Shown here piece by piece: positions 19,874-38,609 of a stretch of 64,000 nt of DNA. Location: positions 4,144,501 to 4,208,500 of the forward strand of contig NZ_CP016756.1 of NCBI RefSeq assembly GCF_001700965.1. Reading direction: 5' to 3'. The stretch is from Stenotrophomonas nitritireducens (GTDB lineage Bacteria; Pseudomonadota; Gammaproteobacteria; Xanthomonadales; Xanthomonadaceae). Below the pieces are notes generated by a model. The model saw only the letters and a list, made by a program, of their open reading frames with translations, was not told where the DNA came from and searched no databases. Position 1 is the stretch's first letter. The number at the start of each line of letters is the position of its first letter. A program made the translations under genes and the position numbers.

Positions 19874-20289
19874 GCAAGATGCCAGACCTCGACACTGCCC
19901 TGGATGTCATCCACAAGCCCCGACATCGCAGCAAGAAGCAGGTCAACGTCGAGCTCAGGTCTGCACCGGAGCCAGGGGATCACGAGTGCCGGCATTCCTA
20001 CTTTGACCTGGCTGTCCACAGTCGGAAAAGAGCAGAACCCCAGTTGCAGTTCCATCGCACGGCCCGGCTCCGCGACTACCGGACTCCTGAGGGCGTTCGC
20101 ACAAATCGTTCAATGATTACCGTGCCGCCGCGCCTCAAAGCGACGATCCAGGAGCTCCTGGAAGACCCTAGCGAGCCTTGGACCACCGGGCTGATAGCCC
20201 TTGCGGAATACGGGGCGCAAGTGCTGAGGAGCGAGCGGAAGGTCTTGAAGGTCACCAAGGCAAGATCCATGGGTGACGCGGGTGACTAG
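19870..20289 (+). CDS. Putative ParA partner (ParB-like)
   Basis: 139 residues, basic, coupled to parA by an ATGA overlap. The central part (TNRSMITVPPRLKATIQELLEDP) looks like a ribbon-helix-helix type DNA-binding start. By position it is the likely centromere-binding partner of ParA. No ParB/Spo0J nuclease-like domain is seen, so it would belong to the small-adaptor type of partition system. The centromere site was not found. Confidence 0.65.
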   Translation: MSKMPDLDTALDVIHKPRHRSKKQVNVELRSAPEPGDHECRHSYFDLAVHSRKRAEPQLQFHRTARLRDYRTPEGVRTNRSMITVPPRLKATIQELLEDPSEPWTTGLIALAEYGAQVLRSERKVLKVTKARSMGDAGD

Positions 20290-20770
20290 CTCAACGGAAG
20301 AACAGTTCATCGAGGCAGCAAGGACGGGTGACCTGGTTAAGTTGCATGAGCTGCTAGCCCAGGTTGACCCCAAGGTCCAGGACTCGAAAGCCTTGGCGGT
20401 CGCAGCAATGAACGCTCGACTCCAAGCCGCTCTGGTGCTCTATCCACTCTCTGACCCGGAGGCTATCGAACACTGGTGTCATCTACGGCAAGGCACAGAC
20501 CCTGATCTGATCCTGCGGATGGTCGAGTGGGCAAGGGCAGGGAGAGTGGGGCCAGGTAGCCCGAGCGAATACAGCAGGGCCACAGCAATCGCTGCGGAGG
20601 AGCAGCATGGGGGCCTCATGGGGCTTCTCTATCTGCACTGCTGTCCTGGGGAAGCTGTGAGCTATTGCCAGGAGAGAGCTTGGTTCGCCGCATCTAGGCG
20701 GCTGGAAGCCTATTTCATAGAGCGGGCAACACCAATCGCAAAAGCGCAAGTTAAGGTGCGGCGGTTGTGA
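20273..20770 (+). CDS. Variant ankyrin-type protein with RRL C-terminus
   Basis: 165 residues, GTG start inside the end of the previous gene (a second GTG is at 20282). It shares the 29-residue repeat of the next gene: DPKVQDSKALAVAAMNA... followed 29 residues later by SDPEAIEHW. The last residues are VKVRRL, the R-[R/V]-L tail shared by six element proteins. Cytoplasmic by sequence, no signal peptide. As the last gene of the parA operon its product may be an effector or immunity-type protein carried as cargo; that role is inference. Confidence 0.7.
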   Translation: MTRVTSSTEEQFIEAARTGDLVKLHELLAQVDPKVQDSKALAVAAMNARLQAALVLYPLSDPEAIEHWCHLRQGTDPDLILRMVEWARAGRVGPGSPSEYSRATAIAAEEQHGGLMGLLYLHCCPGEAVSYCQERAWFAASRRLEAYFIERATPIAKAQVKVRRL

Positions 20771-20826
20771 GGACAGTCTTTGCTCTGCTTAGCCGCCATT
20801 GGTTGAAGTTTTTATATCAATGGGTA

Positions 20827-20855
20827 TTGACAAAAATGCGATTAGCCTTTTACTG
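20827..20855 (+). promoter_or_regulatory. Element-family promoter for the ankyrin-repeat gene
   Basis: TTGACA, 17 bp ending TTAGCCTT, then TTACTG, followed by AAAAGGAGATCACT. The -35 to spacer start is nearly identical to the promoter at 23583. Confidence 0.8.
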
Positions 20856-20872
20856 GAGAAAAGGAGATCACT

Positions 20873-21676
20873 ATGACAAATGATAATGATGAGAAGTTGA
20901 TTATGGCAGCAGCTCAGGGCGACATCGAAACCGTTAGATGTCTCATTCCCGTTTCTGACCCTAAAGCAAGAGGGTCGAAGGCACTACGATATGCTGCGGA
21001 TAGAGGGCATGGCAGAATTGTTGAAATGCTTCTGCCTTTCTCAGATCCAGAAGCAAATGACTCGGAAGCACTGATACATGCCGCACGGGGGGGGTATGAG
21101 GAAATTGTGGAAATGCTTTTGCCTGTCTCAGATCCAAAAGCAAATGACTCGGAAGCACTGATATATGCCGCAGGGGGTGGCTATGAGGAAATTGTGGAAA
21201 TGCTTCTGCCTGTCTCAGACCCAAAAGCAAGTGACTCGGAAGCACTGATATATGCCGCACGGGGAGGCTATGAGGAAATTGTGGAAATGCTTCTGCCTGT
21301 CTCAGACCCAAAAGCAAGTGACTCGGAAGCACTGAGATATGCTGCATATAACGGATATAAGGAAATTGTTAAAATTCTTCTGCCGGTCTCAGATCCGAAC
21401 GCAGAAGGCTCAGAGGCATTGCAAAGTGCCGCTCGCAGGGGGCATCATGAAATTGTTGAGTTGTTAATTCCCGTGTCTGATGTTGATGCGGCGTGCGAAG
21501 AGCTTGATTATTCAGAAGTATCAATGGTTAGAGCTGTCGAAGCGAAGTTAAAGATGACAGAGCTTCAAGCCTCAACTGTCCAAATCCCACAAAGCTTCAA
21601 TCAATGCGTTGATCAAGCAAAGTCTGACAGCCAGGGCACGGCAGCGATTCAAAGGGCCCAGGCCAGGAGGCTCTAA
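20873..21676 (+). CDS. Protein of near-identical 29-residue ankyrin-variant repeats, RRL tail
   Basis: 267 residues. Seven repeats of exactly 29 residues start at bases 20954, 21041, 21128, 21215, 21302, 21389 and 21476, of the form SDPKANDSEALIYAA-x-GGYEEIVEMLLPV. Canonical ankyrin repeats are 33 residues, so this form has lost about four loop residues. The middle copies are nearly identical in DNA, showing recent expansion. After the repeats a tail has VQIPQSFNQCV and ends QARRL. VEIPPSFKECV and SRRL end the protein at 24874, so a shared export or targeting tail is plausible. Own family promoter at 20827. Confidence 0.85.
   Translation: MTNDNDEKLIMAAAQGDIETVRCLIPVSDPKARGSKALRYAADRGHGRIVEMLLPFSDPEANDSEALIHAARGGYEEIVEMLLPVSDPKANDSEALIYAAGGGYEEIVEMLLPVSDPKASDSEALIYAARGGYEEIVEMLLPVSDPKASDSEALRYAAYNGYKEIVKILLPVSDPNAEGSEALQSAARRGHHEIVELLIPVSDVDAACEELDYSEVSMVRAVEAKLKMTELQASTVQIPQSFNQCVDQAKSDSQGTAAIQRAQARRL
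20954..21475 (+). repeat. Six in-frame 87-bp tandem repeats
   Basis: Exact 87-bp spacing of the SDP word across 20954-21475 within the ankyrin-variant gene, with a seventh partial unit from 21476. Units starting at 21041, 21128 and 21215 differ by only a few bases, so copy number is likely to vary between isolates. Confidence 0.85.
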
Positions 21677-21727
21677 TGAGCCTTGCCATAATTACGCAAG
21701 AAAAATTGCGTGGCCCAAAGGATATGG

Positions 21728-22963
21728 TTAGTAAGAGTTCTGCGCGGCTTTCACCATATCGTACAGATCGTCAATTTTCTTGATGTCCTTATACTTGTCG
21801 GATGTTAGCAGCTCAGCGATAGCGGCTCTCGAATATTGAATTATTGTGGCATAACTCTGATCAATCTCCTTATTTCCGCCGTGAACAAGGGCGGACCTCA
21901 TTCGATACACTTTTTTTAGTAGTTTGCTCATCTCAATTCTTGATTCTTTGTCCTTCGCAACGATGAAGACGAACGTTTCCGCCAAGCGATCACCAATGCT
22001 CTTTTGGAAGAGGCTCCCTTCGTCGTAAGACAATAAGATTTCCAGGGCAATACAGGTGTGGATCACTGAGTCTTTTTCTGTTTGGGTCTTAAGGGCTTCG
22101 CCAAGGGAGATTGAGCAATTCAAAATCCTAGATCCAAAATCAGAGAGTTTTTTTCCATCCTTTCTATTTTTATATAGATCCCATAGTGCACCAAAGTTCT
22201 TATTGGCTGCGAAGAATTCATTGTCTAAAGGCACTTTCTCCACAATCATGTTTTTAATTGAGGTGGATGGGAAATCAATATTCTTTTTGAGGATTTGATA
22301 GGAGCTTGTTTCAACATACATCTGTTGATGTGAGATGCTGCCATAGGAGGGGAGGCCGGTTTTGACAAACATGGAATCATCTTTCCTGCCGGCAGTGAAG
22401 AAGATTAAGTTGATAAATTCTTGAAACTCATCATGAGCAATCGAGATTGATTTTTCGTTGTCATAGCTATCCTTAATTTCCGAGCTTATGTAGTAGCCAT
22501 TATCGTTTGCTATGGGGAGTTTGAGTGTGGATGAATGGCCAAGTTCAAACGGGCCGATGGATATTGGTCCTTCTGAATCAATCCTTATTCCTGATATTGG
22601 GGCAATTACCTTTACGTCCTCTGGCTTGGCATCTGTAAAAACCTTGAGGAGCTCCATCGTGCCCGCGTCCGAGAAATCACCTCCCGCAACTTTTTTATCA
22701 AAGATTGCCTTTTCAATGATTTTTAAAGCCGTTGCTCTACTGAATCGTGAGCTGATTTTTTTGTGTCCGCTGTAGATTGAGTCTAATGAAATGTAAAATG
22801 AAATAACATCGTCGATGCAATATCCTTTATTGTTTTTTGTATCAATCGTAAATTTCTTTGATTGGACTGCGTCATGTGGGCTGCACTCATGGATTAATTC
22901 CAGGGCGGAATTTAAGAGCATCTTAGTGTCCACGGTGTTTTCGTTCTTATCGGTTGAAGCCAT
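21728..22963 (-). CDS. ApeA-like HEPN protein
   Basis: 411 residues, AT-rich compared with its neighbours. The last 130 residues resemble ApeA-type HEPN domains: IHTCIALEILLSY, then YRMRSALVHGGN (about 353-364) with the R-X4-H motif (R356, H361). ApeA-like HEPN proteins are anti-phage RNases triggered by infection. The N-terminal 250 residues form a beta-rich domain that may sense the trigger; it has no recognised family here. Single gene, opposite in direction to the genes on both sides. The upstream TTTGGAGATCC may be its leader. Confidence 0.75.
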   Translation of the reverse strand: MASTDKNENTVDTKMLLNSALELIHECSPHDAVQSKKFTIDTKNNKGYCIDDVISFYISLDSIYSGHKKISSRFSRATALKIIEKAIFDKKVAGGDFSDAGTMELLKVFTDAKPEDVKVIAPISGIRIDSEGPISIGPFELGHSSTLKLPIANDNGYYISSEIKDSYDNEKSISIAHDEFQEFINLIFFTAGRKDDSMFVKTGLPSYGSISHQQMYVETSSYQILKKNIDFPSTSIKNMIVEKVPLDNEFFAANKNFGALWDLYKNRKDGKKLSDFGSRILNCSISLGEALKTQTEKDSVIHTCIALEILLSYDEGSLFQKSIGDRLAETFVFIVAKDKESRIEMSKLLKKVYRMRSALVHGGNKEIDQSYATIIQYSRAAIAELLTSDKYKDIKKIDDLYDMVKAAQNSY

Positions 22964-23008
22964 TTGTAGCGTCCTTTTACTCGGTTTGGAGATCCAGCGT
23001 TAAGGGTT

Positions 23009-23183
23009 CTATGAACGTTGGAGCCGTAATTGTCCTCTATCTTGCCACGTCATAAGTGGCATTGCCATTACCTCACTCAAGTGCATGTCAAGAAAACAGA
23101 TTACACGACGAGCTGCCGTTGCGAGCTATATGAATCATGTGAGGTGGCGAGAGCCCTCGGTCTTCCTGCACCAACGTTCATAG
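23009..23183. repeat. 13-bp inverted repeat enclosing 149 bp
   Basis: CTATGAACGTTGG (23009-23021) and its perfect complement CCAACGTTCATAG (23171-23183) flank a stretch with no convincing gene. It lies in the gap between the HEPN gene and the next small gene. It could be a small terminal-repeat element, a recombination site or a regulator binding pair. Confidence 0.5.
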
Positions 23184-23249
23184 GAGCTAGCTGTAATTGC
23201 AGCAAGCATCGGCGCACCCAGTTAAGGATGCCAATTCGATCTTAAAAGC

Positions 23250-23278
23250 TTGACAAAAGTTGGATCTGCCTTTTGCTA
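23250..23278 (+). promoter_or_regulatory. Element-family promoter
   Basis: TTGACA, 17 bp ending ATCTGCCTT, then TTGCTA, upstream of AAAAAAGGAGATCAC and the ATG at 23307. Confidence 0.8.
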
Positions 23279-23306
23279 AATATATCCACTCAAAAAAGGA
23301 GATCAC

Positions 23307-23540
23307 ATGAAAATCAACGCAATTCAGAGGCTCATCCGAAAGGCCCGTGAGACCGGAGTTATTTCGATTAAAGAAGGGGTCTTTCTTTCAACAGGAGAGA
23401 AGATCAAGGGGGAATTGCTTATTTGGGATGAGGCCGCGTCTATCAATGTTCTAGACGACGATCTCTGGATCTATACAGAAGGAGGGATGTATATGCAATT
23501 GGGGCAAAAGCCCGAGCGAGAGCTCAACTGCTATGTGTAA
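23307..23540 (+). CDS. Small hypothetical protein
   Basis: 77 residues. A basic N-terminal helix (KINAIQRLIRKARETG) is followed by beta strands with conserved-looking hydrophobics (GELLIWDEAASINVLDDDLWIY). Promoter of the element family at 23250 and a dedicated terminator at 23548, so it is a monocistronic unit. Function not recognised. Confidence 0.65.
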   Translation: MKINAIQRLIRKARETGVISIKEGVFLSTGEKIKGELLIWDEAASINVLDDDLWIYTEGGMYMQLGQKPERELNCYV

Positions 23541-23547
23541 AAAAAAG

Positions 23548-23570: not shown

Positions 23571-23582
23571 CAACTGCGTCTA

Positions 23583-24873: not shown

Positions 24874-25611
24874 ATGTTTTTATATCACTGCACTGACAGC
24901 GAAAATCTTTGTAAAATTGCATTAGATGATTTTACGAAGGACAATGTCATTCGTGGACTGTGCTTTTCTGATAACGCTCTAGATCACTTTGGTGACGTAA
25001 CGTATCGAATAGAGCTTAGAGATGAGGAGAATATGCTCACTACCGATATGCTTCACAACCTGGATGTATCACCAACCAATTCTATTGACTACATGTCTGA
25101 CAGGCATGGAAACCCGTTAATTATTAGGGGGGAAGATATTAGATCTGCTTTCGAGAAAGCCTGCCTTGAATTCGATTACGATAAAGAACAGTGGGAGAAC
25201 CTGTGGGCATGCGCGATTGAGTTTGACGACTGTAGTGGCAACGATGAGCTTATTGAATATGCCAATGGAGAAGATCCAGCCTGGGATTTGCAGAGCATAC
25301 GCGGCCGAACCGCCTATCATCTTGGTCTGGCCGGAGCTGTGATTTCAGATGAGAACGGAACTTCATACATCATCTCAGATAGCAGCCTTCGGCTTGATCG
25401 AGTCGAATACGATGACGAGAACATGGAGGATCAGTGGCGTGTCGTGGAAAGGTGCTCACATACTAAAGGCGCTGATGAGTCTACGTTGACCCAAAAAGAG
25501 TTCCAGACAAACTCAGTGGAAATTCCCCCGAGCTTCAAGGAATGCGTTGCAAGCCAGCATAGTCTTGGTCCGGCATCTGTAACGCGAGTCACCAGTTCCC
25601 GTCGTCTTTGA
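24874..25611 (+). CDS. ADP-ribosyltransferase-like protein with SRRL tail
   Basis: 245 residues. The N-terminus reads like a mono-ADP-ribosyltransferase fold: FLYHCTDSENLCKIALDDF (2-20) for the arginine/histidine strand region, then GLCFSDNALDHFGDVTYRIEL with the usual FS strand and a following hydrophobic strand. A late RGRTAYHLGLAGAV may close the site. This is a motif-level reading with no clear catalytic glutamate triad. The C-terminus has VEIPPSFKECV, matching VQIPQSFNQCV in the ankyrin-variant protein, and ends SSRRL. Together this suggests a toxin-like effector with a transport tail. Own promoter of the element family. Confidence 0.6.
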   Translation: MFLYHCTDSENLCKIALDDFTKDNVIRGLCFSDNALDHFGDVTYRIELRDEENMLTTDMLHNLDVSPTNSIDYMSDRHGNPLIIRGEDIRSAFEKACLEFDYDKEQWENLWACAIEFDDCSGNDELIEYANGEDPAWDLQSIRGRTAYHLGLAGAVISDENGTSYIISDSSLRLDRVEYDDENMEDQWRVVERCSHTKGADESTLTQKEFQTNSVEIPPSFKECVASQHSLGPASVTRVTSSRRL

Positions 25612-26862: not shown

Positions 26863-27687
26863 ATGCTGAAAGAGTTCCCCAAGCCGTTGGCTGCCACCAT
26901 TGGTGATGTCGTTGGCTCCTACTACTACAGTCACCGACGCTTGGAGACGATGCTTTATGAAGCAGGCGCTTCTGGCGATGTTCCTGAGGGAAATTGCGTT
27001 GATAAGGTTCAAAATTGGCTTGTGAGAGAAGGGAAGGAGGATGTCTCTAAGGCCTTCACGATCCTTGGCAAGCTCATTGAAACGCTGATGGATGGTGAGG
27101 TCTCGACCTGGGACCCCGACAAAGAGCTCACTGCTCGCAAGCGAATCAACGAAATTCTTGCTCGCTATCAACTGTCCTATGGATTTGGCGGCCGCATTCT
27201 GGGCGCTCACTCTGTCACAGCTCCAAGCAAGGCGTTCGGCGATGCTTTGAAGGACTTCTCGGTCGCAGAGGTGGAGGAAGAGTTTGAGCGAGCGGTGAGA
27301 TTCATTGACAGTGATCCGGCTGCTGCCGTCACGGCAGCATGCGCCATTGTCGAAGCTCTCTGTAAGCACTACATCGCCACTGAGCGCCTGGATCTACCCA
27401 CGAGTCAGACAGTGAAGCCCCTGTGGGTTGTCGTTGCTAAGCACTTGAAGCTGTCGCCTGAGCAGCTGGAAGACGATGACTTGAAGCGTGTGCTGTCGGG
27501 GCTAAGCTCCATCATTGATGGCCTCGGTGCTTATCGAACGCATGCGGGCAGTGCCCACGGCCAGCACAAACGCGCCTACAAGGTCGCTCCAAGGCACGCA
27601 CGTCTTGTTGTCCACTCAGCTCATTCTTTGTGCCTGTTTGTGGTGGAAACTTGGCAGGCCCGGGAAGCCCTGGCCAAGGGGAGATAG
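26863..27687 (+). CDS. Abortive-infection C-terminal (HEPN) domain protein
   Basis: 274 residues. The second half matches the Abi_C pattern: FERAVRFIDSDPAAAVTAACAIVEALCKHYI, then KHLKLSPEQ, then a helix with LSGLSSIIDGLGAYRTHAGSAHG (about 211-233). The last contains R225 and H232 in the R-X6-H arrangement of HEPN nucleases. Proteins with this domain occur in phage-exclusion genes and alone in mobile islands. N-terminal half helical, unknown. The downstream gene 27692 begins 4 bases after the stop. Confidence 0.8.
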   Translation: MLKEFPKPLAATIGDVVGSYYYSHRRLETMLYEAGASGDVPEGNCVDKVQNWLVREGKEDVSKAFTILGKLIETLMDGEVSTWDPDKELTARKRINEILARYQLSYGFGGRILGAHSVTAPSKAFGDALKDFSVAEVEEEFERAVRFIDSDPAAAVTAACAIVEALCKHYIATERLDLPTSQTVKPLWVVVAKHLKLSPEQLEDDDLKRVLSGLSSIIDGLGAYRTHAGSAHGQHKRAYKVAPRHARLVVHSAHSLCLFVVETWQAREALAKGR

Positions 27688-28772: not shown

Positions 28773-29531
28773 ATGAATGAGTTGCTCCCAGGGCTTGATT
28801 TTTCCGGCTACATCCAAGGCAGGGCCGAGATCTGCAACAGGATTAGGAGAGGCTTTGATGAAATTGAAGATGCGATAAAAATGGCCAAGGATGGCAAGCT
28901 TTTTGATCGGAGATTGCACGAGGGCAAACGATATCTCAGTCGCACAGAGAGCGAGCTGATCGACACTATTGATCGGTCAGCATGGCGCTACTTGATGGAA
29001 CAAAGTGGACTTTGGTCGTTTCTTAATGATGCAAGGCGCGATGAATGGACGCGAGGATTGGGTGGGTATGATCCAGTTCCTGAGTTCAGTTCAGATAATG
29101 TTGAGGCCACTTTTCGCGAATACTATGAATCGCGGGAGCAAATGCGAGACGACGGACTAAGGGATATTTTTTTGGAACTTAGTCGTGATTATAAGTGCAA
29201 TGAGCATCACTATCTCGCGGAAAAGTGCATTGTTAAGTTGTCTGACTGGACTGGTGGCTTTGATCAATCAAGTGTCAATGTTATCGATGATTTGGCAAGG
29301 GTCATGTGCTCACTTGATGGAAAGCCGGAGTTCGATCATCGAATCACTACATTTAGGATGCTTACACAGAATTGCTGGGAGGACGCACCTTGGAATGATT
29401 ACTTCTCATTGAAGGTATTCAAAAACAAGAACGGACATATCAAGTTTAAGCGACTGGATCTATTAGAAAGATTGAATAATGAGATTGGGAGGGTCTTTTC
29501 CAATGCACTGCCTCCCGAAATTAAGTTATGA
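28773..29531 (+). CDS. DUF4942-like protein
   Basis: 252 residues. The C-terminal 110 residues match the DUF4942 pattern seen in plasmid and phage proteins: LSDWTGGFDQSSVNVIDDLARVM, followed by NCWEDAPWNDYFSLKVFKN and GHIKFKRLDLLERLN. In many relatives that domain is fused to a methyltransferase; here no SAM motif is visible, so it is the domain alone. The ribosome binding site is AAAAAGGGGGG. The 3' end overlaps the opposite-strand HNH gene by 11 bases. It ends PEIKL, only partly like the RRL tail. Confidence 0.75.
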   Translation: MNELLPGLDFSGYIQGRAEICNRIRRGFDEIEDAIKMAKDGKLFDRRLHEGKRYLSRTESELIDTIDRSAWRYLMEQSGLWSFLNDARRDEWTRGLGGYDPVPEFSSDNVEATFREYYESREQMRDDGLRDIFLELSRDYKCNEHHYLAEKCIVKLSDWTGGFDQSSVNVIDDLARVMCSLDGKPEFDHRITTFRMLTQNCWEDAPWNDYFSLKVFKNKNGHIKFKRLDLLERLNNEIGRVFSNALPPEIKL

Positions 29532-30597
29532 GGTCTTGAAGTGCTACTAGCCGAGCCTCCAGGACGGCGCAAGCGCCGTCTTGGAGAGCATCCTTGATCC
29601 GATTTTGGTGATAGAGAGCGAGCCGCTGGCTGCGGTTGGTCTCAACTTTTGCGGCACTTTTCCGACGCTTCCGCAGTGCGTCAGGCTTGTTAGATAGCGC
29701 GCGTGTTGCATCAGGGCAGCGGGCGAGCTCACCGAACTTGCTGGCATGACCAGGCCTCAGGCGGGACCTGAGTGCAGCGACTGACCGAACATGGTCCGGC
29801 CAGAAGTCTTGCCACTCGCTACCGGGAGCTACCGCGTCATTGCTTGGGAGGGGCACAGGCACGACGAGTGCGTTGAGCTCGATGAGTGACCAGATCAAGG
29901 GTAGGAAGCGCCCTGGATCTACCTGGTAGACCCTCACGGCTTCTCCCACCAGCGCTAGGCGGGCACCCTGAAACTTGGTCAGCACCTTGGCGATACCAAG
30001 GCTCCCGCCATCACCGGAGCGCCGGGTAAAGCCAATGAGGGCTAGGTCAGACGAATGGTGGACGAAGACACGAAAGCGTGGCTCAGCCCAACGCTTGGCC
30101 AGGTGCCTCAGCACAGTGCACTTCATCGAATTGCGGGTATGAGGCGTCCAGTGGTTGGCAGAGCGAGCTAGCAATTCCAGACGCCGCTGCACCAAGTCGG
30201 TTGGAGAAAAGCCCAGGGCGCGGCCGTGCGATGGAAGGGGTGGGGCAGCAGCTGGGCTGCAGAACGGTTCGCCAAGGCTGAGCAGATCTGAAGTGCCGCG
30301 TCTTCGATTGCAGCGCTCACAGCACAGGAAGCAGTTCGAGAAGTCATCCGGGCCGCCAAGCTCAACGGGAACGATCTGAGCGACGACGATTGACGATCTC
30401 TGGGTGAAGTCAGACGCGCAGATCGGGCAAGAGGTCTGCATCGCTCTCAAATGCTCACGAAGTTTTGCTGGCAGATTGAATGATTGGTGAGCCGAAAGTT
30501 CAGAGATGGCTTGGCTGAAATTCGCAATCGGATCATCAAGAGAACTTTGCTTCGCTTCGTTCACTTGCTCGATCCTAATTTTGTCTGTCGTCTCCAT
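29521..30597 (-). CDS. HNH-fold protein with altered catalytic site
   Basis: 358 residues. Residues 56-100 carry the HNH zinc frame: CPICASDF, then VVAQIVPVELGGPDDFSNCFLCC and ERCNRRRG. In active HNH enzymes the strand ahead of the P-x-x-x-G-G reads D-H; here it reads A-Q, so the first catalytic histidine appears lost. The C-terminal 250 residues are helical and basic. It may bind DNA without cutting it, or use another residue. The start region holds a repeated word GGAGACGACAGA (30584-30595, 30602-30613) so an ATG-duplicating event shaped the leader. A palindrome at 30625 may control it. Confidence 0.7.
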   Translation of the reverse strand: METTDKIRIEQVNEAKQSSLDDPIANFSQAISELSAHQSFNLPAKLREHLRAMQTSCPICASDFTQRSSIVVAQIVPVELGGPDDFSNCFLCCERCNRRRGTSDLLSLGEPFCSPAAAPPLPSHGRALGFSPTDLVQRRLELLARSANHWTPHTRNSMKCTVLRHLAKRWAEPRFRVFVHHSSDLALIGFTRRSGDGGSLGIAKVLTKFQGARLALVGEAVRVYQVDPGRFLPLIWSLIELNALVVPVPLPSNDAVAPGSEWQDFWPDHVRSVAALRSRLRPGHASKFGELARCPDATRALSNKPDALRKRRKSAAKVETNRSQRLALYHQNRIKDALQDGACAVLEARLVALQDLIT

Positions 30598-31460: not shown

Positions 31461-32072
31461 ATGAACAAACTAAAATTAACGATGATCGCAATGCTTGCTG
31501 CCTCGCTCACTGGATGCGCCACCATCGACCAACTTGCCGGTGGAAGCGCATCTCCGATCAACAAAGGCACAGTCGCTAAAGGTGCAGGAATTGGCTGTGC
31601 AGCGGGTGGGGCGCTCGGGGCCATTTTCGCAGGCAAAGACGGTGCGCTGAAAGGATGTGCGGCGGGCGGATTGATCGGTGGAGGCTTTGCTTACAAGCAA
31701 GAGCTCGCACGAGCCAGAGAAGCCGCAGATGCAGCTCGCCTGGCAGGCATGAAAGCAACAGTGGGCGTGAAGACCGAGACCTCTGCTGATGGGAAGGCTA
31801 CGGAAAAATTCCAAGGCCTAGTGATCGAGTATGACCCCGCATCGGTGGTCAAGCCTGACGACAAGACCAAAGCCTTCTTCGATAAGCTCGGCACGATCTT
31901 GAAGTCTTCAAAAAATGAGCTGACTGTTCGAACCGAAGGTGGAGCAGGGTGCTTGGCTGTTGTCGGCGAGTTGAACGGACGCAATGCTTTGACTAAGCAC
32001 AAGCTCGACAACCAGTGCGGCAAAGTTCCGACTCACCGCATCTTAGTCTCTCCACTGCCGGAGCTGAAATAA
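31461..32072 (+). CDS. Lipoprotein with glycine-zipper
   Basis: 203 residues. The type II signal is KLTMIAMLAASLTGC with the lipid Cys at 19. Residues 36-72 hold glycine-zipper repeats (GAGIGCAAGGALGAIFAGK and GCAAGGLIGGGF) that usually sit in an outer membrane or span it. The C-terminal 120 residues form an alpha/beta domain of the OmpA-like size (ELTVRTEGGAGCLAVVGELNGRNA). Likely an outer-membrane part of the transfer or surface machinery. Confidence 0.75.
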   Translation: MNKLKLTMIAMLAASLTGCATIDQLAGGSASPINKGTVAKGAGIGCAAGGALGAIFAGKDGALKGCAAGGLIGGGFAYKQELARAREAADAARLAGMKATVGVKTETSADGKATEKFQGLVIEYDPASVVKPDDKTKAFFDKLGTILKSSKNELTVRTEGGAGCLAVVGELNGRNALTKHKLDNQCGKVPTHRILVSPLPELK

Positions 32073-32075
32073 GTG

Positions 32076-32096
32076 GAGCCCTTCGGGGCTCTTCTT
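32076..32096 (+). terminator. Rho-independent terminator
   Basis: GAGCCC TTCG GGGCTC with a T-rich end, directly after the lipoprotein stop. Confidence 0.75.
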
Positions 32097-32115
32097 ATCT
32101 CAAAAGGAGATCAAG

Positions 32116-32784
32116 ATGAGTATCAGTGATTACGAGCGAAGAAAATTATTGGAAAAAGCTGCAAAGCTTAAAGCTGAAAAAGAAGACGGGTCATCTTTTC
32201 CAACTCCTCTAAACTTGCAGCAAGTTCAAGATCGGAAGATGGATCAGCGCTTGGAAAAGACCCAGGTCGCGGCCAAGGCAACTGCACAAGCCACGAGCGG
32301 ATTTGCCAAAGAGCTTGCGGCCAAGACTGCCAAGCTTGCTCAGGAACAAGCGCAGCGTGCCAAAGCAAAGGCAGATGCTTGGAGGCAAGCACAAGATGCG
32401 AAGCGAACAGAGCACGAAGAGGTTAATCGGATCCAGGATGCTGAGCTTGATCGGGAAGAGCAAAACCCGGCCATCGAGAACACAGACGTTGCCAATCCCC
32501 AAGCGCTATCGAAGCCCACTTTCAAGATCCTGGCTTCCATAGCAGTCTTCACCGCTCTTTCAGGAGCAGGTGTATGGTTCTGGACTCAGCACGAGAGCGA
32601 GAAGACCCCTGAGCTGCACCAGGTCGATGTGCCTTCCCCACTGCCTGTTGCGCCAGCACCTCAGGTCCAGGAAGCGCCCAAAGCATCTGAGCCCGCCCAG
32701 GTCATAGAGCCTGTGCATGAGATGTCTGTGACGCCCAGTGTCGAGGAGCAGCCAAGTCGGTTGAACCGAAGCTCCAGAAGGTAG
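32116..32784 (+). CDS. Bitopic membrane protein, probably frameshifted at the 3' end
   Basis: 222 residues. A charged coiled coil (residues 1-130, many Lys/Glu/Gln) is followed by one membrane helix (FKILASIAVFTALSGAGVWFW, about 136-156) and a proline-rich periplasmic stretch. The frame closes at 32784 with LNRSSRR. In the -1 frame, reading continues without stop from 32721 to 32932 and encodes a plausible further 55 residues. This points to a one-base change or a regulated frameshift. The layout resembles TonB-like or TrbI/VirB10-type proteins, but it is too short to name. Confidence 0.7.
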   Translation: MSISDYERRKLLEKAAKLKAEKEDGSSFPTPLNLQQVQDRKMDQRLEKTQVAAKATAQATSGFAKELAAKTAKLAQEQAQRAKAKADAWRQAQDAKRTEHEEVNRIQDAELDREEQNPAIENTDVANPQALSKPTFKILASIAVFTALSGAGVWFWTQHESEKTPELHQVDVPSPLPVAPAPQVQEAPKASEPAQVIEPVHEMSVTPSVEEQPSRLNRSSRR

Positions 32785-32932
32785 ACCGATCACCTGCACC
32801 CATTGCGATTGTTCGCGCACCCAAAAAACGTTCAGAGATGCGACAACAGATTGAACAACCCAATACAAAGGGAAGTGATTGGGTAGACAAAGCTAACAAT
32901 GATCTCGATCACTTCGCAGAACAATTAAAATA
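32721..32932 (+). pseudogene. Out-of-frame 3' tail of the 32116 gene
   Basis: Continuous coding-like frame shifted by one base relative to 32116-32784. It reads SVEPKLQKVDRSPAPIAIV, then IEQPNTKGSDWVDKAN and ends HFAEQLK at a TAA just before the terminator. No start codon with a ribosome binding site is present, and the terminator follows it directly, so it is best explained as the true C-terminus of the upstream protein. Confidence 0.6.
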
Positions 32933-32933
32933 A

Positions 32934-32966
32934 AAAAAGCGCAGCCTTCGTGTTGCGCTTTTTGCT
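32934..32966 (+). terminator. Rho-independent terminator
   Basis: AAAAAGCGCA (32934-32943) pairs with TGCGCTTTTT (32954-32963). It overlaps the promoter at 32953. Confidence 0.8.
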
Positions 32967-32981
32967 TTTTGGCTTATTGCT
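32953..32981 (+). promoter_or_regulatory. Element-family promoter for the membrane protein-ATPase pair
   Basis: TTGCGC, 17 bp ending TTGGCTT, then ATTGCT, followed by CAGGAGATCA and the GTG at 33013. The -35 lies in the right arm of the preceding terminator. Confidence 0.5.
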
Positions 32982-33012
32982 GATCTACCACTCAAAAAAA
33001 CAGGAGATCAGT

Positions 33013-33492
33013 GTGTTCGAAAGTCTATTCCGTCAATTCAGAACAAAGGTCAAGAGCGCAGACGGCTCGCGCTGGATGCACCTTCATGGAAGGTTGCTTA
33101 TCGGAAGCGTTGAAAGCAAGGGTCTGGGTCCGTTGCACCCCGATGTGATTCGCACCTACTACTACTTCCACAAAGACCGCTACCCGCTGGACGGGGTCAT
33201 GACTCAGTCGGGATGGGGACGAGACTGTCAAAGAGCCGACATACGTCGACGAGTCGAGGCCAGCTATGTCGGTGTCTATGCGTGCTTGCTTAGCACAGCC
33301 CTCATCACTGCAATGCTATTTGCTTTCATGATGATGATGGGCCTGGGTTCTCTCGGAAGCAAGGTAGGTAGCGCGGTCGGTCTATCACCTTCATATGCGG
33401 CGTGCAAAGCGCAGTATCAGAAATCAATCGAGACTGGATCAGATGTAAATCCGAAGTGCCAAGAAGTTATGGAAAAGGCGGGTGAACTATGA
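33013..33492 (+). CDS. Membrane protein coupled to TraG-like ATPase
   Basis: 159 residues from GTG (CAGGAGATCA upstream). A cytoplasmic first half with FHKDRYPLD is followed by a long hydrophobic segment (YVGVYACLLSTALITAMLFAFMMMMGLG, about 95-125), and a small C-terminal domain with two cysteines (AACKAQY, NPKCQEV). Its stop overlaps the ATPase start by 4 bases, so the two probably assemble together. Family not recognised. Confidence 0.7.
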   Translation: MFESLFRQFRTKVKSADGSRWMHLHGRLLIGSVESKGLGPLHPDVIRTYYYFHKDRYPLDGVMTQSGWGRDCQRADIRRRVEASYVGVYACLLSTALITAMLFAFMMMMGLGSLGSKVGSAVGLSPSYAACKAQYQKSIETGSDVNPKCQEVMEKAGEL

Positions 33493-36302
33493 TGCCCACC
33501 ATATTCCAAGTTCTGAGCGTTCTCGGAAAAATTCCGGGGTTGAAGCGATTTGTTGATGTTGAAGCGTCAATACAAGAGCGCACCAATGAAGAAATTCATG
33601 AAGTGGTCGGCGCATTCGATGACTTCGTTAAAGTCCCAAGCAACATCCTGGTAGATGTCAATGAAGAAGATCAGGCCATTGTAGAAGCATATGGGGCGAT
33701 TCAATTCCCTGATGGGTCCTGGCACGTAAGCGATGATTTGAAGCATTCGAAGGATCTTGAACCGTGGATGCCTGACGCCACTGACGACATGATCGTTCGC
33801 TTTGAAAATTCTAAGATCACGCGCTCTGGCAAGCCGATGGACGGCGTAGTGCTACCTCAAGACACGATCACTGGATCCGTCTCCTCAGCGATGCCATTGA
33901 TGTTCGCAGCGCTTCCCGTTATCGCTTGCGTAGCCTTCATTCTTAGTCGTTTCTTCGGAGCTTATGGATACCTGGCTCTTCTTGCAGCAGTGCCATATCT
34001 AAAAGCTATTCGTGTTGACAAGTCAGCCTCTCATGCCATTGGTTCTTTCTTCTGTTTGCTGGTCGGACCACTATTTGTTGGCATCCAATCGTTGGGCGAT
34101 GAGCGCGTGGCAGCCTTAAGAAGTCTCCTGTTCGGGCCGGGTTTGATTCCGATGGGAATAGCGTTCTTGGTTGTCGTTACCCTCACATTTGCTTGCTGCT
34201 ATTTCAGCAGCAAGCAGGGAACCAAGCATGAGAAATCACTCGACCTATTCGCGAGAGCGTTGAAGGTCGAAGTCTCATTCGTTGTCTATGCCGTGGCTGT
34301 TTCGCTTCTTCCCGCACCATTGAGCTTGATCTTTATATTTGCAGTGCCGAATTTGTATTGCATTCGCTACACACAGATTGAGCGTGAAACTCGCACGTCT
34401 GAGACATCGTCAAACAGCAATCACTTCACAATCGGACGTCATGAGAAGACTGCTCGCGGAATGATGAAGAAGCAGTGGATCGCCCAGGCATTGCGTGCGC
34501 TTAACGATAAGTCGCCGCTCATCCCACTGGGAAAAGCCACTGGCTTCTTGTTCAACAAGATGTATCGTTTTGCGCCAGTCCCAGGAAAAATGCTTGTGGC
34601 TTCTCTAAAGGACACCTCTCAGCACATCCTGGTGATCGGCAAGTCTGGTGGCGGCAAGACCTTCTGGCTTCGAAAGATCATGGCCTTGGTGAAGTTGACG
34701 AAATGGGCCGGGGCCATTGTGGGTGACGGAAAAAACGTGCTCGTTCGAGAAGTAATGAGCTTGATGGATATCGTGATTGAGCCTGGCATCAACCTATCTC
34801 TAAGCCAAGGAATGAACGCTCAACAGTTGGTCCAAGCGTTCAGAGAGTTGAAGCGCAAAGGCAAAATGTCGGAGGACGAGAGCAGCTTCTGGACAAGCAT
34901 GGGTTTCATCGTCTTAGAGCACGTTGCCATGATTGTTGAAGCGGCATGCGAAGCTGAGAAGTTTGTTCGCACAAACACGGCACTATTGATCTCAGACGAA
35001 GAACAGCAATTGATCAAGTTCACTGCAATTGAGCAACTTGCGGAGTTGGAAGATGATCAAGAGCGATTAAAGCATGCAAGAAATGCGATTGCTGAGACCA
35101 ATGCAAATATCCGCAAGTTGGAAGCATCTTTGAAACAGCCGCGCTCGTGTTATTGGACAATTGGTCAGATCCAGCGCTTCTTAAACGTGGTCAATCAGAT
35201 CAAGCAAACGGAAAAAGGTTTCGAGCTCCACGAAGAGTTCCGGGGCGCGTTCGACTTCATTGAAAAATCTGGCTATCTAAATGTGGCGGATGCAGCCAAC
35301 CAGATCAAAGGGTCAGTCTCGTATTTCGCAAACACCTGGGCAGTGATGGCACCTGAAACCCGCACCAGCATCACTTCGAACATCGACAACGCCTTGAACG
35401 ACGTCTTCCGTGGGCGACATCTCAAAAACGCGGATGGAGTTCTGTGGGCCGACACCGAGACAGGCATCGACTTCCAAGGTGTATTGACCGAAAAGCTCTG
35501 GATCGGTGTCAACTTGCCAACCATGGTCCATGGCGTGGGTGGACAGATCACAGCGGACATCGTGCGGATGCGCGTTTACAACCTGATCAAAAATCGCCCT
35601 GTCAATTGGGCTGACCTTGAAGGGCACAACCCTGTCTTCAACTTCATCGATGAGGCTCAGTCTGTGATCGGTGAAGCGGAGCGTGACTTGATCGCAATGG
35701 CGCGAAGCTTGGGTTGCTACTTCGTTTTCTTGACTCAGAACATCAGCTCCTTCCTCGCCAATTTCAGTGAACACGGGGCGCACAACTTATTCGAGCTCTT
35801 CGCTACCAAAGTTCTTATGCAGAACGAGAGTTCTCATAGCACCTACAAGTATTTCCAAGAAATGCTGGGCAAAGCTAGGCTCACGCCCTACAAGACCGCG
35901 TCAGTGGGGATCAACAACCAGGCTATGCTCCAGCGCTACGCCAATAGCGCCCTGGTCGATCCCGAACATCCCGATGCTGTCTTCATGCAGAAGTTGAGAG
36001 AGAAAGGAGTCGGCGCGATACAGAACTCCTATGTCCACTCCGCTCCCCGGCAAATCGATGTTAAGGATGCGGCCCACCGCTTTGAAGACGTTGCACGAAT
36101 CAAGAACTTCGATCTTGAAACAGTGCAGGGCACTGAGTTGTCCTGGGTGATGGACGATGACGACTTTGCCAACACGCTGTTCCAGGGCCAGGCATTGATC
36201 GTCGTGTCGCGCGCCGGTTCGACGCGAACAGAGATCTGTGAGGTCGGAGGACTAGAGGCAGATCAAGTGGAGGATTTCATGAGAGAGAACAGTAGGGCCT
36301 GA
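33489..36302 (+). CDS. Large membrane-bound TraG/VirD4-like ATPase
   Basis: 937 residues. N-terminal cytoplasmic part (1-130), then several membrane segments (about 133-205, 215-240, 262-295), then a P-loop ATPase with Walker A GKSGGGKT (about 383-390) and Walker B VFNFIDEAQ (about 715-723). Downstream, CYFVFLTQNISSFLANF is the typical motor segment of coupling or secretion ATPases. It may be a second coupling protein or a large mating-apparatus ATPase; a separate split coupling protein is encoded at 38606-40452. Coupled to 33013 by ATGA. Confidence 0.8.
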   Translation: MMPTIFQVLSVLGKIPGLKRFVDVEASIQERTNEEIHEVVGAFDDFVKVPSNILVDVNEEDQAIVEAYGAIQFPDGSWHVSDDLKHSKDLEPWMPDATDDMIVRFENSKITRSGKPMDGVVLPQDTITGSVSSAMPLMFAALPVIACVAFILSRFFGAYGYLALLAAVPYLKAIRVDKSASHAIGSFFCLLVGPLFVGIQSLGDERVAALRSLLFGPGLIPMGIAFLVVVTLTFACCYFSSKQGTKHEKSLDLFARALKVEVSFVVYAVAVSLLPAPLSLIFIFAVPNLYCIRYTQIERETRTSETSSNSNHFTIGRHEKTARGMMKKQWIAQALRALNDKSPLIPLGKATGFLFNKMYRFAPVPGKMLVASLKDTSQHILVIGKSGGGKTFWLRKIMALVKLTKWAGAIVGDGKNVLVREVMSLMDIVIEPGINLSLSQGMNAQQLVQAFRELKRKGKMSEDESSFWTSMGFIVLEHVAMIVEAACEAEKFVRTNTALLISDEEQQLIKFTAIEQLAELEDDQERLKHARNAIAETNANIRKLEASLKQPRSCYWTIGQIQRFLNVVNQIKQTEKGFELHEEFRGAFDFIEKSGYLNVADAANQIKGSVSYFANTWAVMAPETRTSITSNIDNALNDVFRGRHLKNADGVLWADTETGIDFQGVLTEKLWIGVNLPTMVHGVGGQITADIVRMRVYNLIKNRPVNWADLEGHNPVFNFIDEAQSVIGEAERDLIAMARSLGCYFVFLTQNISSFLANFSEHGAHNLFELFATKVLMQNESSHSTYKYFQEMLGKARLTPYKTASVGINNQAMLQRYANSALVDPEHPDAVFMQKLREKGVGAIQNSYVHSAPRQIDVKDAAHRFEDVARIKNFDLETVQGTELSWVMDDDDFANTLFQGQALIVVSRAGSTRTEICEVGGLEADQVEDFMRENSRA

Positions 36303-36321
36303 TTGCTCAGTCTCCATAGAA

Positions 36322-36350
36322 TTAGCCCCGAGCAATCGGGGCTAATTGCT
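36322..36350 (+). terminator. Rho-independent terminator
   Basis: TTAGCCCCGA GCAA TCGGGGCTAA, a perfect 10-bp stem after the TraG-like gene, followed by TTGCTTT. Confidence 0.85.
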
Positions 36351-36378
36351 TTACAAGATCCCAAACTGCCTTATGTTG
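36350..36378 (+). promoter_or_regulatory. Element-family promoter
   Basis: TTTACA, 17 bp ending AAACTGCCTT, then ATGTTG, before ATGGAGACC and the ATG at 36406. Confidence 0.6.
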
Positions 36379-36405
36379 GTTTTACCCCAATTATGGAGAC
36401 CATTC

Positions 36406-36912
36406 ATGACAAGTTTTGCAGAAGCACAAAAGAGGCGCAACGAGTTCTACCAGAACAATCCTGGTCCACAGGCCACAATGACTGATCAGGTCAAGTCATT
36501 TAAGCAAGAAGAGCACAAGATCACTTCACAAGCGGGCGATGCTCTGAAAACTGAACTCACTTCACTGTCTAAGAGTTCGGATCCTGAGTTATTGAAATCA
36601 ACGGTTAGCCAGGTTGAATTCCAAAGCAAGCTGTCGGTCTATCGCTCTGACCAAATTGAACAAATCATACATGCGCAAACGCTGAACGCGGAGCGCGTGT
36701 CACGCAGTCAGAACAACGACGGCTATCAGAAGCAGTTCATCAACCGAGATGGCATTGACGAAGAGAAGCAACACGAAGAGAAATTCAATGCATTCATGCG
36801 TGAGAAGGGACGCGTTCCTGTCGAGGGCGAGATGGATAAGTTCACCGCCAAGCCAACGCTGACTCAGTCAGATAAGCCCTGGGAGCAAAAGTCTAAAACA
36901 CAGTCCATGTAA
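36406..36912 (+). CDS. Hypothetical helical protein
   Basis: 168 residues, very polar, mostly helical with heptad-like content, Gln/Lys/Glu-rich. No signal peptide, membrane segment or domain recognised. The start after TGGAGACC removes an upstream out-of-context extension. Own promoter and own terminator: a single-gene unit inside the transfer region, possibly an accessory of the relaxosome or mating bridge. Confidence 0.65.
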   Translation: MTSFAEAQKRRNEFYQNNPGPQATMTDQVKSFKQEEHKITSQAGDALKTELTSLSKSSDPELLKSTVSQVEFQSKLSVYRSDQIEQIIHAQTLNAERVSRSQNNDGYQKQFINRDGIDEEKQHEEKFNAFMREKGRVPVEGEMDKFTAKPTLTQSDKPWEQKSKTQSM

Positions 36913-36916
36913 AAAT

Positions 36917-36938
36917 AGGCCCTACGGGGCCTTTTTCT
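36917..36938 (+). terminator. Rho-independent terminator
   Basis: AGGCCC TACG GGGCCT stem with T5. Confidence 0.85.
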
Positions 36939-36952
36939 TATACCTCCATCTC

Positions 36953-36981
36953 TTGACTTTAGTTGCATCTGCCTTTGACTG
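36953..36981 (+). promoter_or_regulatory. Element-family promoter of the ankyrin-coupling protein operon
   Basis: TTGACT, 17 bp ending ATCTGCCTT, then TGACTG. It precedes five overlapping genes (37013-40452). Confidence 0.8.
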
Positions 36982-37012
36982 ATTTTACTCAAAAAAAATC
37001 GGAGATGCACAA

Positions 37013-37582
37013 ATGATCAATGCTATCGAACGCTTGCCAATCATGCAGCGTGACCTTGTCAGGATGATTGCCTGTTCTAATCCTTGGCAACAAAAGCTCT
37101 TTGAAGTGGCGAATTCAGTGTGCTTGGGTAGGTCTGATAGTCCCCCTGCCGTTGATGACATCACTTGCATCTTCCTCCACAACCTTTCGATGCTTGATCA
37201 TCCCAGCGAATGGATTGGTGATCATCGCTATGAAGCTTCCAGCTACGTCGATCACTTGCATGGTCTTCTGATGTTTGGCGCTGATCCAAATGCACAGCTG
37301 AGCAACGGGCGCAATCTCTTGGATGTTCTCACCGCCGAAGGCCGATATTGGCGCTGGAAAGACGCAAGCGAGAACATCCCAGACCTTGTGCTTGCTGCTT
37401 TCTCGCTCGGTGCGGTCGCATCTGCTGATGCAGCTAAGGCAATGATCCTTCCTGTCCATCAGAACATCCGCGCTGGTCAGATTGATCACGAGAGTAATCA
37501 CATTGTCTCATTGATCGACCGCGTGTTGCTTGATCAAACTTCGGCATATGTCGCGCTGACCAAGATTGGAGTTCGTTTATGA
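37013..37582 (+). CDS. Ankyrin-like protein with VRL tail
   Basis: 189 residues. Ankyrin-like words: YVDHLHGLLMFGADPNAQLSNGRNLLDVLTAEGR (about 82-115) and LVLAAFSLGAVASADAAK (about 127-144). It ends LTKIGVRL, the R-[R/V]-L-type tail shared by six element proteins. Its stop overlaps the next start (ATGA). First gene of a five-gene coupled operon that ends with the coupling protein, so it may be a transfer substrate or a regulator of the apparatus. Confidence 0.7.
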   Translation: MINAIERLPIMQRDLVRMIACSNPWQQKLFEVANSVCLGRSDSPPAVDDITCIFLHNLSMLDHPSEWIGDHRYEASSYVDHLHGLLMFGADPNAQLSNGRNLLDVLTAEGRYWRWKDASENIPDLVLAAFSLGAVASADAAKAMILPVHQNIRAGQIDHESNHIVSLIDRVLLDQTSAYVALTKIGVRL

Positions 37583-37983
37583 GCAAGAAGCCAATATTGA
37601 TCAGTCATTCGTTCAGCAGTAGTGGTCTGTCGTTTTGTCTTGTTGATGAAATATACATTGACGAAGCCAATTATGAGCTTATCAAAGTCGACTTGGCTGC
37701 TCCGCCGCTGCCACCGCTTGCCCATACTCCGATGGCGATGCAGGGATTTAGGGTAAATCATTTGTTGCGGGAGGTGCGTGACATCGCTCGTGATCTTAAG
37801 AGGCCCGTGCGATCAAGTTCGGGCTGCAATTCTTGGAAATGTGATCTAGATATTGCCCAGGAAGAACTTGAGAGCAAGAAGCGCCATGAAATAGACCGTA
37901 TAGATCGACTTCTAGATCAGAGGGGCGCACTACAAAGAAATACGCCTAAGGTAAGTCTTGTTCATAAGCCGGTGCGCTTATGA
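37579..37983 (+). CDS. Small protein with VRL tail
   Basis: 134 residues. A beta-rich first half (ILISHSFSSSGLSFCLVDEIYIDE) is followed by basic helices and a C-terminus reading KVSLVHKPVRL. No domain recognised. Overlaps both neighbours by 4 bases, so expression is coupled to the upstream ankyrin protein and downstream to the 37980 gene. Confidence 0.65.
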   Translation: MSKKPILISHSFSSSGLSFCLVDEIYIDEANYELIKVDLAAPPLPPLAHTPMAMQGFRVNHLLREVRDIARDLKRPVRSSSGCNSWKCDLDIAQEELESKKRHEIDRIDRLLDQRGALQRNTPKVSLVHKPVRL

Positions 37984-38609
37984 GGAACATCCTTAGTAGA
38001 TTGATTGATGCGAGTAGGGTGTCCATCTGGGACGGCTTTGGGATCCTTCGTCATGACTATGACGAAGGGCTGATCGACTTCATGTGCGGTTCGAGGCAGG
38101 TGAGCTGGCGTGGGCCCGAGAGGGCGCTTGTCGTTGGGGAGCTCGCTGAAAAGCTGTCAATGTGCTGCCCGGAGCTAGACCCCGAAGAAAAGGACATCGA
38201 GTTAGCCGAAATGGCTGCCAAATCCCAGCATCAGGGCCCTGAGTCCTGGTTGTTCCGTGAAATGAGGGATCTGGTCGTTGATGGTGCCAATCCCGAATTT
38301 TTGACTGAGCAAGGCAGCTACTTGCAACTACTCATGCGGTATTACTCCATAGCGCGTTCGCTAGAGCACGAGTATGACGCGGATGTTGTTGGGGACCTAC
38401 TGCTCTGCCTGTCAAAGATCGATAGCCTCGATGTCTCCTCCGGGAATGCGGATCTCGTCGCCGCCTTACTGAATTGCGAGAGTCTGGCAGGGTCACCGTT
38501 GATCACTGCTGACGATGTCAGGTCGTTGGCTGCAAGCAATGATCGAGCCGCTCTTGAACGATCGACTTTGCATGTGTTGGTGCAGCCACAAGTTTCCAGG
38601 CGTCTATGA
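37980..38609 (+). CDS. Helical protein with RRL tail, coupled to the coupling protein
   Basis: 209 residues, helical and acidic. The repeat-like words MRDLVVDGANPEFLTEQGSYLQLLMRY (about 97-123) resemble a degenerate ankyrin repeat. It ends QVSRRL. The stop overlaps by 4 bases with the membrane half of the coupling protein at 38606. Three coupled genes each ending R-[R/V]-L and leading directly into the coupling protein is the strongest local hint that the tail is read by the transfer system. Confidence 0.65.
   Translation: MRNILSRLIDASRVSIWDGFGILRHDYDEGLIDFMCGSRQVSWRGPERALVVGELAEKLSMCCPELDPEEKDIELAEMAAKSQHQGPESWLFREMRDLVVDGANPEFLTEQGSYLQLLMRYYSIARSLEHEYDADVVGDLLLCLSKIDSLDVSSGNADLVAALLNCESLAGSPLITADDVRSLAASNDRAALERSTLHVLVQPQVSRRL

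Follow-up and report, generated by a model that had tools for sequence, protein, structure and literature searches.

Element-specific C-terminal tails as putative sorting signals on proteins of mobile elements in Xanthomonadaceae

Background

Why do six proteins of a single mobile element stop at nearly the same three residues, and why do the genes of three of them run directly into a coupling protein? The question is raised by a 64,000-nucleotide stretch of Stenotrophomonas nitritireducens DNA (positions 4144501-4208500 of NZ_CP016756.1, the sole contig of a 4.54 Mb genome), referred to here as the window. From position 1 to ~53.9 kb the window is an integrated mobile element, because it holds an integrase next to a tRNA gene, ParA, ArdC, a TrwC-type relaxase, TraD and T4CP2, a second coupling-protein-like ATPase, and has a GC content of 43-58%, lower than the 59-66% of the flanks on either side. 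The TrwC relaxase (PF08751) and the VirD4/TraD ATPase (PF10412) are both present, as in a MobF relaxase element with its coupling protein; a direct repeat was sought for the left end of the element and none was found. The reading that we favour, with a probability of roughly 0.55, is that the common tail would be an element-specific C-terminal sorting signal, that it would be recognised by a reader encoded on the element, for which TraD is the best candidate, and that the proteins bearing it, here called carriers, would be exported during conjugation.

Six proteins of the element end in [R/V]-R-L

A first-pass annotation had listed six open reading frames (ORFs), ending at 20770, 21676, 25611, 37582, 37983 and 38609, as sharing the terminus R-[R/V]-L. 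All six have the ends as listed (Table 1), and the formula is shifted by a single position: what they share is [R/V]-R-L, with arginine at position -2. As a scoring motif, the misregistered R-[R/V]-L matches only RRL ends, and it was replaced by [RV]-R-L. The codons differ between copies, as had been claimed, with no two of the six tails using the same three (CGG CGG TTG, AGG AGG CTC, CGT CGT CTT, GTT CGT TTA, GTG CGC TTA and AGG CGT CTA). For a motif that was picked after the data had been seen, residue composition predicts 0.044 such ends against the six observed, in line with the earlier estimate of well under one.

The enrichment over chromosomal proteins that had been proposed as a check was borne out within the host genome, where [RV]RL ends occur in 6 of 61 called element genes (one of which, carrier 5, was added by hand) and in none of 296 genes from 18 chromosomal loci. 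These genes were called with a simple in-house caller rather than a standard annotator, so that some genes are missed, some are doubtful and some starts are wrong. Nine further loci (eight from other genomes and one from the own genome), chosen because of the ankyrin genes they hold, contain such ends in 2 of 169 genes, one on a second element of the window type in genome G401 and the other on an ankyrin protein ~30 kb from a transfer cluster. Obvious chromosomal ankyrin proteins (loci L178, L179, L180 and L183), compared by eye, lack the tail, the comparison being kept to obvious cases because our crude ankyrin filter over-calls on chromosomes.

The tail sits at the very C-terminus of several soluble proteins that are unrelated to one another, and carries a net positive charge, the last 12 residues of the six carriers ranging from +2 to +4 (chromosomal mean 0.28, sd 1.85), while the bodies of five of the six are acidic. 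A transmembrane (TM)-like stretch was found in none of the six and in 1 of 53 carriers of five other elements. The ankyrin repeats of carrier 2 are above the Pfam cut-off (PF12796, 1e-39). Carrier 3, described earlier as ADP-ribosyltransferase-like, aligns over residues 1-167 to the AcrIF11 anti-CRISPR family (NF052490 of NCBIfam, E 1.7e-12), which agrees with that description; it differs from the family in scoring just below the curated cut-off (48.4 bits against 50) and in an extra C-terminal extension of ~75 residues that holds an IPxSFxxCV block and the tail, and its match to the AcrF11 entry of the PDB is weak (E 0.03). The block, in the form [I/V]PxSFxxCV, is common to the proteins ending at 21676 and 25611, as had been noted.

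The gene order near TraD was also described correctly. ATGA overlaps lie at 37579, 37980 and 38606, so that carriers 4-6 lead directly into TraD, and the split of the coupling protein is real: its two ORFs align to successive parts of one-piece TraD, and TraD is split alike in the relative element G399, while the other relatives compared have one ORF. An alternative start at ATG 39088 is possible for the ATPase piece and would make a further ATGA overlap. The ankyrin protein at 13917-14480 was a candidate for a seventh carrier and was dropped because its end is not constrained: the homologue in G399 ends in AMRL, that in G401 in MSKPT and the window protein itself in KPLSL.

Table 1 Carriers and other principal features of the window element
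Feature	Position	Strand	Remarks
Carrier 1, 165 aa, no Pfam family	20273..20770	+	C-terminus FIERATPIAKAQVKVRRL; ends KVRRL
Carrier 2, ankyrin-repeat protein, 267 aa	20873..21676	+	[IV]PxSFxxCV block; ends QARRL
Carrier 3, AcrIF11-like ADP-ribosyltransferase relative with C-terminal extension	24874..25611	+	[IV]PxSFxxCV block; ends SSRRL
Carrier 4, 189 aa, no assigned function	37013..37582	+	Ends IGVRL
Carrier 5, 134 aa, no assigned function	37579..37983	+	C-terminus LQRNTPKVSLVHKPVRL; ends KPVRL; ATGA overlap with carrier 4
Carrier 6, 209 aa, no assigned function	37980..38609	+	C-terminus LERSTLHVLVQPQVSRRL; ends VSRRL; ATGA overlap with carrier 5
TraD N-terminal membrane piece	38606..39091	+	Aligns to ~residues 1-160 of one-piece TraD; overlaps carrier 6 by ATGA
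TraD ATPase piece	39079..40452	+	PF10412 6.3e-59; ~residues 160-620 of one-piece relatives; candidate tail reader
TraI, MobF/TrwC-type relaxase-helicase	40544..43366	+	PF08751 7.8e-59; no tail (ends VALTR)
T4CP2, second coupling-protein-like ATPase, 937 aa	33489..36302	+	PF10412/PF12696 in C-terminal part; alternative candidate reader
Lipoprotein	31461-32072	+	Small transfer-cluster gene with homologues in relatives; type read from translation
Single-TM protein	32116-32784	+	Small transfer-cluster gene with homologues in relatives; type read from translation
Membrane protein	32950-33492	+	Small transfer-cluster gene with homologues in relatives; type read from translation
Ankyrin protein	13917..14480	-	No tail in window (ends KPLSL)
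ArdC (ArdcN + MPTase-PolyVal)	14477..15529	-	Anti-restriction gene of the window element; no tail
Tyrosine integrase	52370..53896	-	Beside tRNA-Arg(CCT) 53819-53895; marks right end of element

The tail is kept while the sequence before it changes

A homology search with carrier 4 returned 24 proteins, 52-92% identical, with Stenotrophomonas and Xanthomonas among the sources. All 25 rows of this family (24 of 24 homologues and the window protein) end in [V/K/R]-R-L, and the entropy is 0 at positions -1 and -2 compared to 1.2-2.5 bits at positions -4 to -16. The 14 residues before R-L contain no invariant column, the last 13 residues occur as 19 distinct strings, and by eye at least eight versions of the pre-tail stretch can be told apart, for example SAYVALTKIGVRL, TSSPSGQASAKRL, VPKYQVAVKKPVRL and TPIVAPEAQARRL. 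Because R-L is invariant in all 25 proteins while the neighbouring sequence varies freely, these alignments argue firmly that the tail is under selection. Among the proteins found for carriers 3 and 6, RRL is kept in 10 of 12 (the window's own included) and 9 of 10, respectively, and in the exceptions (P0011, P0012 and P0022) the C-terminal sequence is altered or shortened. Homologues of carrier 6 share one body that begins with either of two N-terminal heads, MRNILSRL... or MKNTLKRL..., which suggests recombination.

The same pattern is seen in G399, the nearest relative element, whose TraD is 93% identical to that of the window. Its relative of carrier 1 retains GRRL after a different pre-tail, its carrier 4 homologue ends differently (...VERAAKVVRL) with VRL intact, and the operon slot taken up by carriers 5 and 6 in the window is occupied by a 114-aa ORF that has no match in the window and ends in VRRI.

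Related elements carry tails of their own

Among 395 genomes sampled from the bacterial family, 16 have a T4CP2 match, own genome included; a sample of 369 from the class gave 3, each of them a member of that family. TraD was matched in 13 genomes among 91 of the genus, again counting the own genome. The loci around these matches, with homologous TraD, TraI and T4CP2 genes, were retrieved for comparison of tails. Plasmid searches gave no close relative and six distant matches, and an added contig scan of genomes gave none. RRL-type ends seemed at first to be nearly absent from distant relatives, with few matches outside G399 and mostly in doubtful ORFs; this impression was set aside, as the distant relatives looked empty because their tails differ.

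Carriers were counted by a single loose criterion. In G256 there are 14, of which 12 end in RRM, RRKM or RRRM (...MRRKM, PKRRM, ARRRM) and the others in GRKI and SHKM. ARR[SG]RGRx[M/L] is found in 8 of the 13 carriers of G010, whose tails include ...ARRSRGRSM, ARRGRGRMM and TRRAM, and an RL end in 9 of the 10 carriers of G426 (...ARVGRL, PKVVRL, AKARRL). Eight carriers were counted in G125 (...RNVRL, RRQGRL) and seven in G401; a tail of G355 reads ...YGRAM, and those of G160, G266, G401, G408 and G431 are of the kinds ...RQRVRL, KRARL and SRPRL. With a criterion, S1, that takes a basic residue at -2 or -3, a terminal L, I or M and at least two basic residues in the last seven, tails were scored in 100 of 1401 genes near clusters (27 loci, related elements counted separately) compared to 8 of 465 controls (p = 1.4e-6), with G256 (16 of 72 genes, p = 7e-10) and G010 (15 of 83, p = 3e-8) standing out. 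Core proteins homologous to the one at 32116 that end in ...LEKRL or ...AWAKKL pass the loose filter and were left out of the similarity tests below and kept in the pooled counts. Pfam, applied to 20 carriers of other elements that were picked partly to sample non-ankyrins, placed ankyrin repeats on nine, a piece of TrwC relaxase on one and no convincing family on ten. The expectation that related elements bear the tail on unrelated proteins is borne out in several of them: equivalents sit on different proteins, often ankyrin proteins, and are absent from the chromosomal genes examined. The tail varies by element, and some related elements lack one. In many relatives the ORF directly before TraD is ankyrin-like, overlaps the traD start and ends in [RH]EQxxxL (for example HEQTQAL or REQVHGL), perhaps a further tail type.

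The signal can be longer than this tip. Four of the six window carriers (FIERATPIAKAQVKVRRL, LLDQTSAYVALTKIGVRL, ALQRNTPKVSLVHKPVRL and ALERSTLHVLVQPQVSRRL) have the motif [LI]xx[AQNS]T at a distance of 12-13 residues from the C-terminus, and in these [R/V]-R-L is the tip of a ~20-residue signal. When the window-defined motif was sought on the other elements, excluding G399, it occurred in 5 of 87 carriers compared to 3 of 1012 non-carriers (p = 1.3e-4, a test only partly independent, as the motif had been seen by eye over several elements beforehand), and four of those five carriers are from G426. A looser motif, fitted on the same data, is found in 16 of 59 R[LI]-ending proteins of the elements and in 29 of 1268 others. 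By eye, DLA[ST]P[DE]-like stretches are seen in G010 and G355, and a KxxLLxEL-like stretch with a Pro-containing linker in G256. In general shape, the signal runs from a short stretch of helix-like character through a linker to basic residues and a final Leu or Met.

Tail type co-varies with TraD

Similarity of the last six residues is greater within than between elements at a level that none of 5000 label shuffles reached (68 carriers on nine elements selected for having carriers), in a test inflated by shared ancestry, for which collapse of related carriers removed 1 of 69. Over 91 carriers of 18 elements, mean similarity of tails was 8.97 for the same TraD clade in different genera and 5.69 for the same genus with different clades, a difference that none of 1000 clade shuffles reached, the clades having been assigned by us from a quick tree with weak deep forks. 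Genome G401 holds both a clade-A element, whose tails are mainly of the RxRL or PRL type, and another element of the window type (L175+L176, C1:1905001-1945000), which is riddled with insertions and has the tails GRRL, ARRL and SSRRL. We regard the existence of element-specific tail versions as firm on this sequence evidence, and the co-variation with TraD clade supports, and does not prove, a matched receptor. TraD is favoured as the reader because the last three carriers run into it by ATGA overlaps and the tail type co-varies with it.

Evidence that weighs against export

The ancestry effect and the weak deep forks just mentioned count against the favoured reading, as do the following observations. 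Plain common descent would also yield co-variation of TraD and tail, and longer C-terminal blocks are shared in G010 and G125. At uncorrected p < 0.05, S1 tails are enriched in G256, G010, G426, G125, G401, G000 (the window element), G399, G160 and G215, and after correction for the 27 loci significance is left only in G256, G010, G426 and G125. The S1 count is 0 in G071, G277a, G398, G414, G429a and G429b and 1 in G115, G152, G189, G277b and G419; several of these loci are short, yet G277a, G115, G189, G277b and G419 have 46-62 called genes, and the single matches in G115 and G189 are a core HNH gene that ends in RLPRAL. The looser pre-tail motif is present in 12 of 296 chromosomal proteins, TraI and ArdC, which would be expected to travel too, lack the tail, and the AlphaFold models were poor, with a mean pLDDT of 39.7 for carrier 3 and 43.9 for T4CP2.

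The channel raises the same doubt. No VirB4 was recognised in the element, and the only PF03135 match of the genome is 2.7 Mb away, so a conventional type IV secretion system (T4SS) cannot simply be assumed. The own genome has no PF11130 match, and PF19044 only at the chromosomal PF03135 place. Across carrier genomes, PF03135 was present in 16 of 24 and absent from eight, several of them drafts. Of 11 genomes, one has a PF11130 match and three have a PF19044 match, and the eight without PF03135 include none of these. The transfer cluster at 31461-43366 and its homologous loci hold a lipoprotein, two membrane proteins, T4CP2, TraD and TraI, without VirB4, and this cluster is possibly an undescribed conjugation machine.

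Other genes of the element

After TraI lie a PilS-like pilin at 43983-44732 (PF08805, 21.6 bits, just below the cut-off of 22) and a trimeric-autotransporter-like protein at 45333-47393, read from its translation; a minus-strand protein of similar look follows TraI in several relatives. Translations also point to chaperone-usher-like fimbrial genes at 47861-52248, within the element. An Abi_C/AbiJ-like abortive-infection gene is present at 26863-27687. Many of the other elements in the comparison have a homologue of the HNH-domain gene at 29521-30597 (minus strand), placed ~4-7 kb ahead of T4CP2.

Discussion

Taken together, a real, selected tag with element-specific versions is firm, and that it serves as a conjugative export address is likely. 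In this proposal the cargo proteins would bear an element-specific tail, made of a basic residue and a terminal Leu (Met in some elements), which a receptor encoded on the element, most likely TraD, would recognise; the receptor would hand the carriers to the element's transfer apparatus and so to the recipient cell, where ankyrins, the anti-CRISPR-like ADP-ribosyltransferase and the other carriers may counteract its defences or make adjustments in the new host. For the reader, for export and for the channel we rely on inference. The earlier proposal of a conjugation-coupled effector set with a minimal tail is kept in its outline, with a selected C-terminal signal, a set of carriers in and around the transfer operon and one anti-CRISPR-like carrier, and given up as to the tail being minimal.

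An element-encoded partner need not be a transport receptor, as the tail could instead bind a scaffold, regulator or chaperone and hold the cargo in a complex in the donor or the new host. Element-specificity demands no more than such a partner, and the cluster does hold proteins without an assigned role (36346 and 43380), but no common partner is evident, the carriers that could be identified are ankyrin and anti-CRISPR-like proteins, and the slot beside the transfer ATPases has different carriers in the window element and in G399, as in a delivered set; we judge such a non-transport tag to be improbable, if worth keeping in mind. A second function of a C-terminal tag would be degradation. 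Basic and hydrophobic C-terminal ends, such as that of MuA of phage Mu, are known ClpX signals, and the G256 tails (RRKM, GRKI) are similar in shape to ends of the MuA type, so that the tail might be a degron for a host protease such as ClpXP, giving short-lived early proteins; a short life could profit cargo such as anti-defence proteins. The host protease should, however, be the same across elements of one host genus and for both elements in G401, whereas the tails differ between them and track TraD clade more than host genus, which makes a degron rather unlikely.

The tail might also have no function at all, if each element had merely reshuffled a small number of ancestral cargo proteins whose original ends were retained. 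A longer block (e.g. DLASPDE..ARRSRGR.M) is indeed common to eight G010 tails, as are ~55 C-terminal residues to three G125 carriers and the IPxSFxxCV block to two carriers of the window, but the persistence of R-L throughout the family of the protein at 37013, next to eight or more versions of the adjacent sequence, and the differing tail codons already disfavour mere descent, which we consider very unlikely. Finally, the carriers could be exported by a T4SS resident on the chromosome, for instance a bacterial-killing X-T4SS, rather than by the element. The host genome has a chromosomal pair of VirB4 and VirD4-like genes at ~1.49 Mb. At E up to 0.1, Pfam, a library that presumably contains an XVIPCD model, reported no such family for the six carriers. 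Known X-T4SS effectors bear an XVIPCD of ~120 residues in the published accounts drawn on here (PMC10025392, PMC11253643), and tails that differ by element within one genus do not fit a resident system either; we give this origin hardly any credence.

Export by way of TraD has precedents, to the extent that the excerpts of the cited papers describe them. F plasmids deliver proteins to recipients via TraD (PMC8406263), and the likeness to F plasmid pED208 is that element-encoded helper proteins reach recipients through TraD; the difference is that the cargo there is SSB, Psi and Par proteins, with no shared terminal tag described in the excerpt, while here it would be ankyrins and an anti-CRISPR-like protein. 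The Agrobacterium VirB/D4 system uses short, positively charged C-terminal signals on different effectors, as the tails here would be (PMC10025392). There, however, an Arg consensus is described, whereas here a terminal Leu or Met is fixed after Arg or Lys, the tail varies by element and the element has no recognised VirB4; according to the same excerpt, no consensus unites the C-terminal signals of different T4SSs (PMC10025392). Systems of the X-T4SS type share the Stenotrophomonas hosts (also Xanthomonas) and have a C-terminal signal read by VirD4 (PMC11253643), but that signal is the folded ~120-residue XVIPCD rather than a tail of ~20 residues. The idea of counter-defence proteins delivered with DNA has been put forward for polyvalent proteins and ArdC (PMC5512222), and ArdC is encoded here too; those are multi-domain protease fusions in the excerpt, whereas here separate small proteins share a tail that ArdC lacks. 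In a limited search covering titles and the starts of abstracts, no paper describes such tails.

A bolder extension, which we offer tentatively and hold to be possible rather than probable, is that the Xanthomonadaceae harbour a family of elements with an evolving address code, in which each element would put its own tag on a large set of ankyrin and counter-defence proteins and have a matched TraD-type receptor, delivery together with the DNA would proceed without VirB4 and the cargoes of co-resident elements would be kept apart. Whatever the fate of that idea, several elements offer a short tag that is visible by eye, is shared by different cargo, varies by element and has a candidate receptor to go with it, which makes recognition by coupling proteins testable by simple tail swaps. 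The comparison also brings to light a transfer module without a recognisable VirB4. For this bacterial family the tail gives a sequence rule by which conjugation-delivered proteins may be found, and ankyrin proteins and an anti-CRISPR become possible passengers of conjugation.

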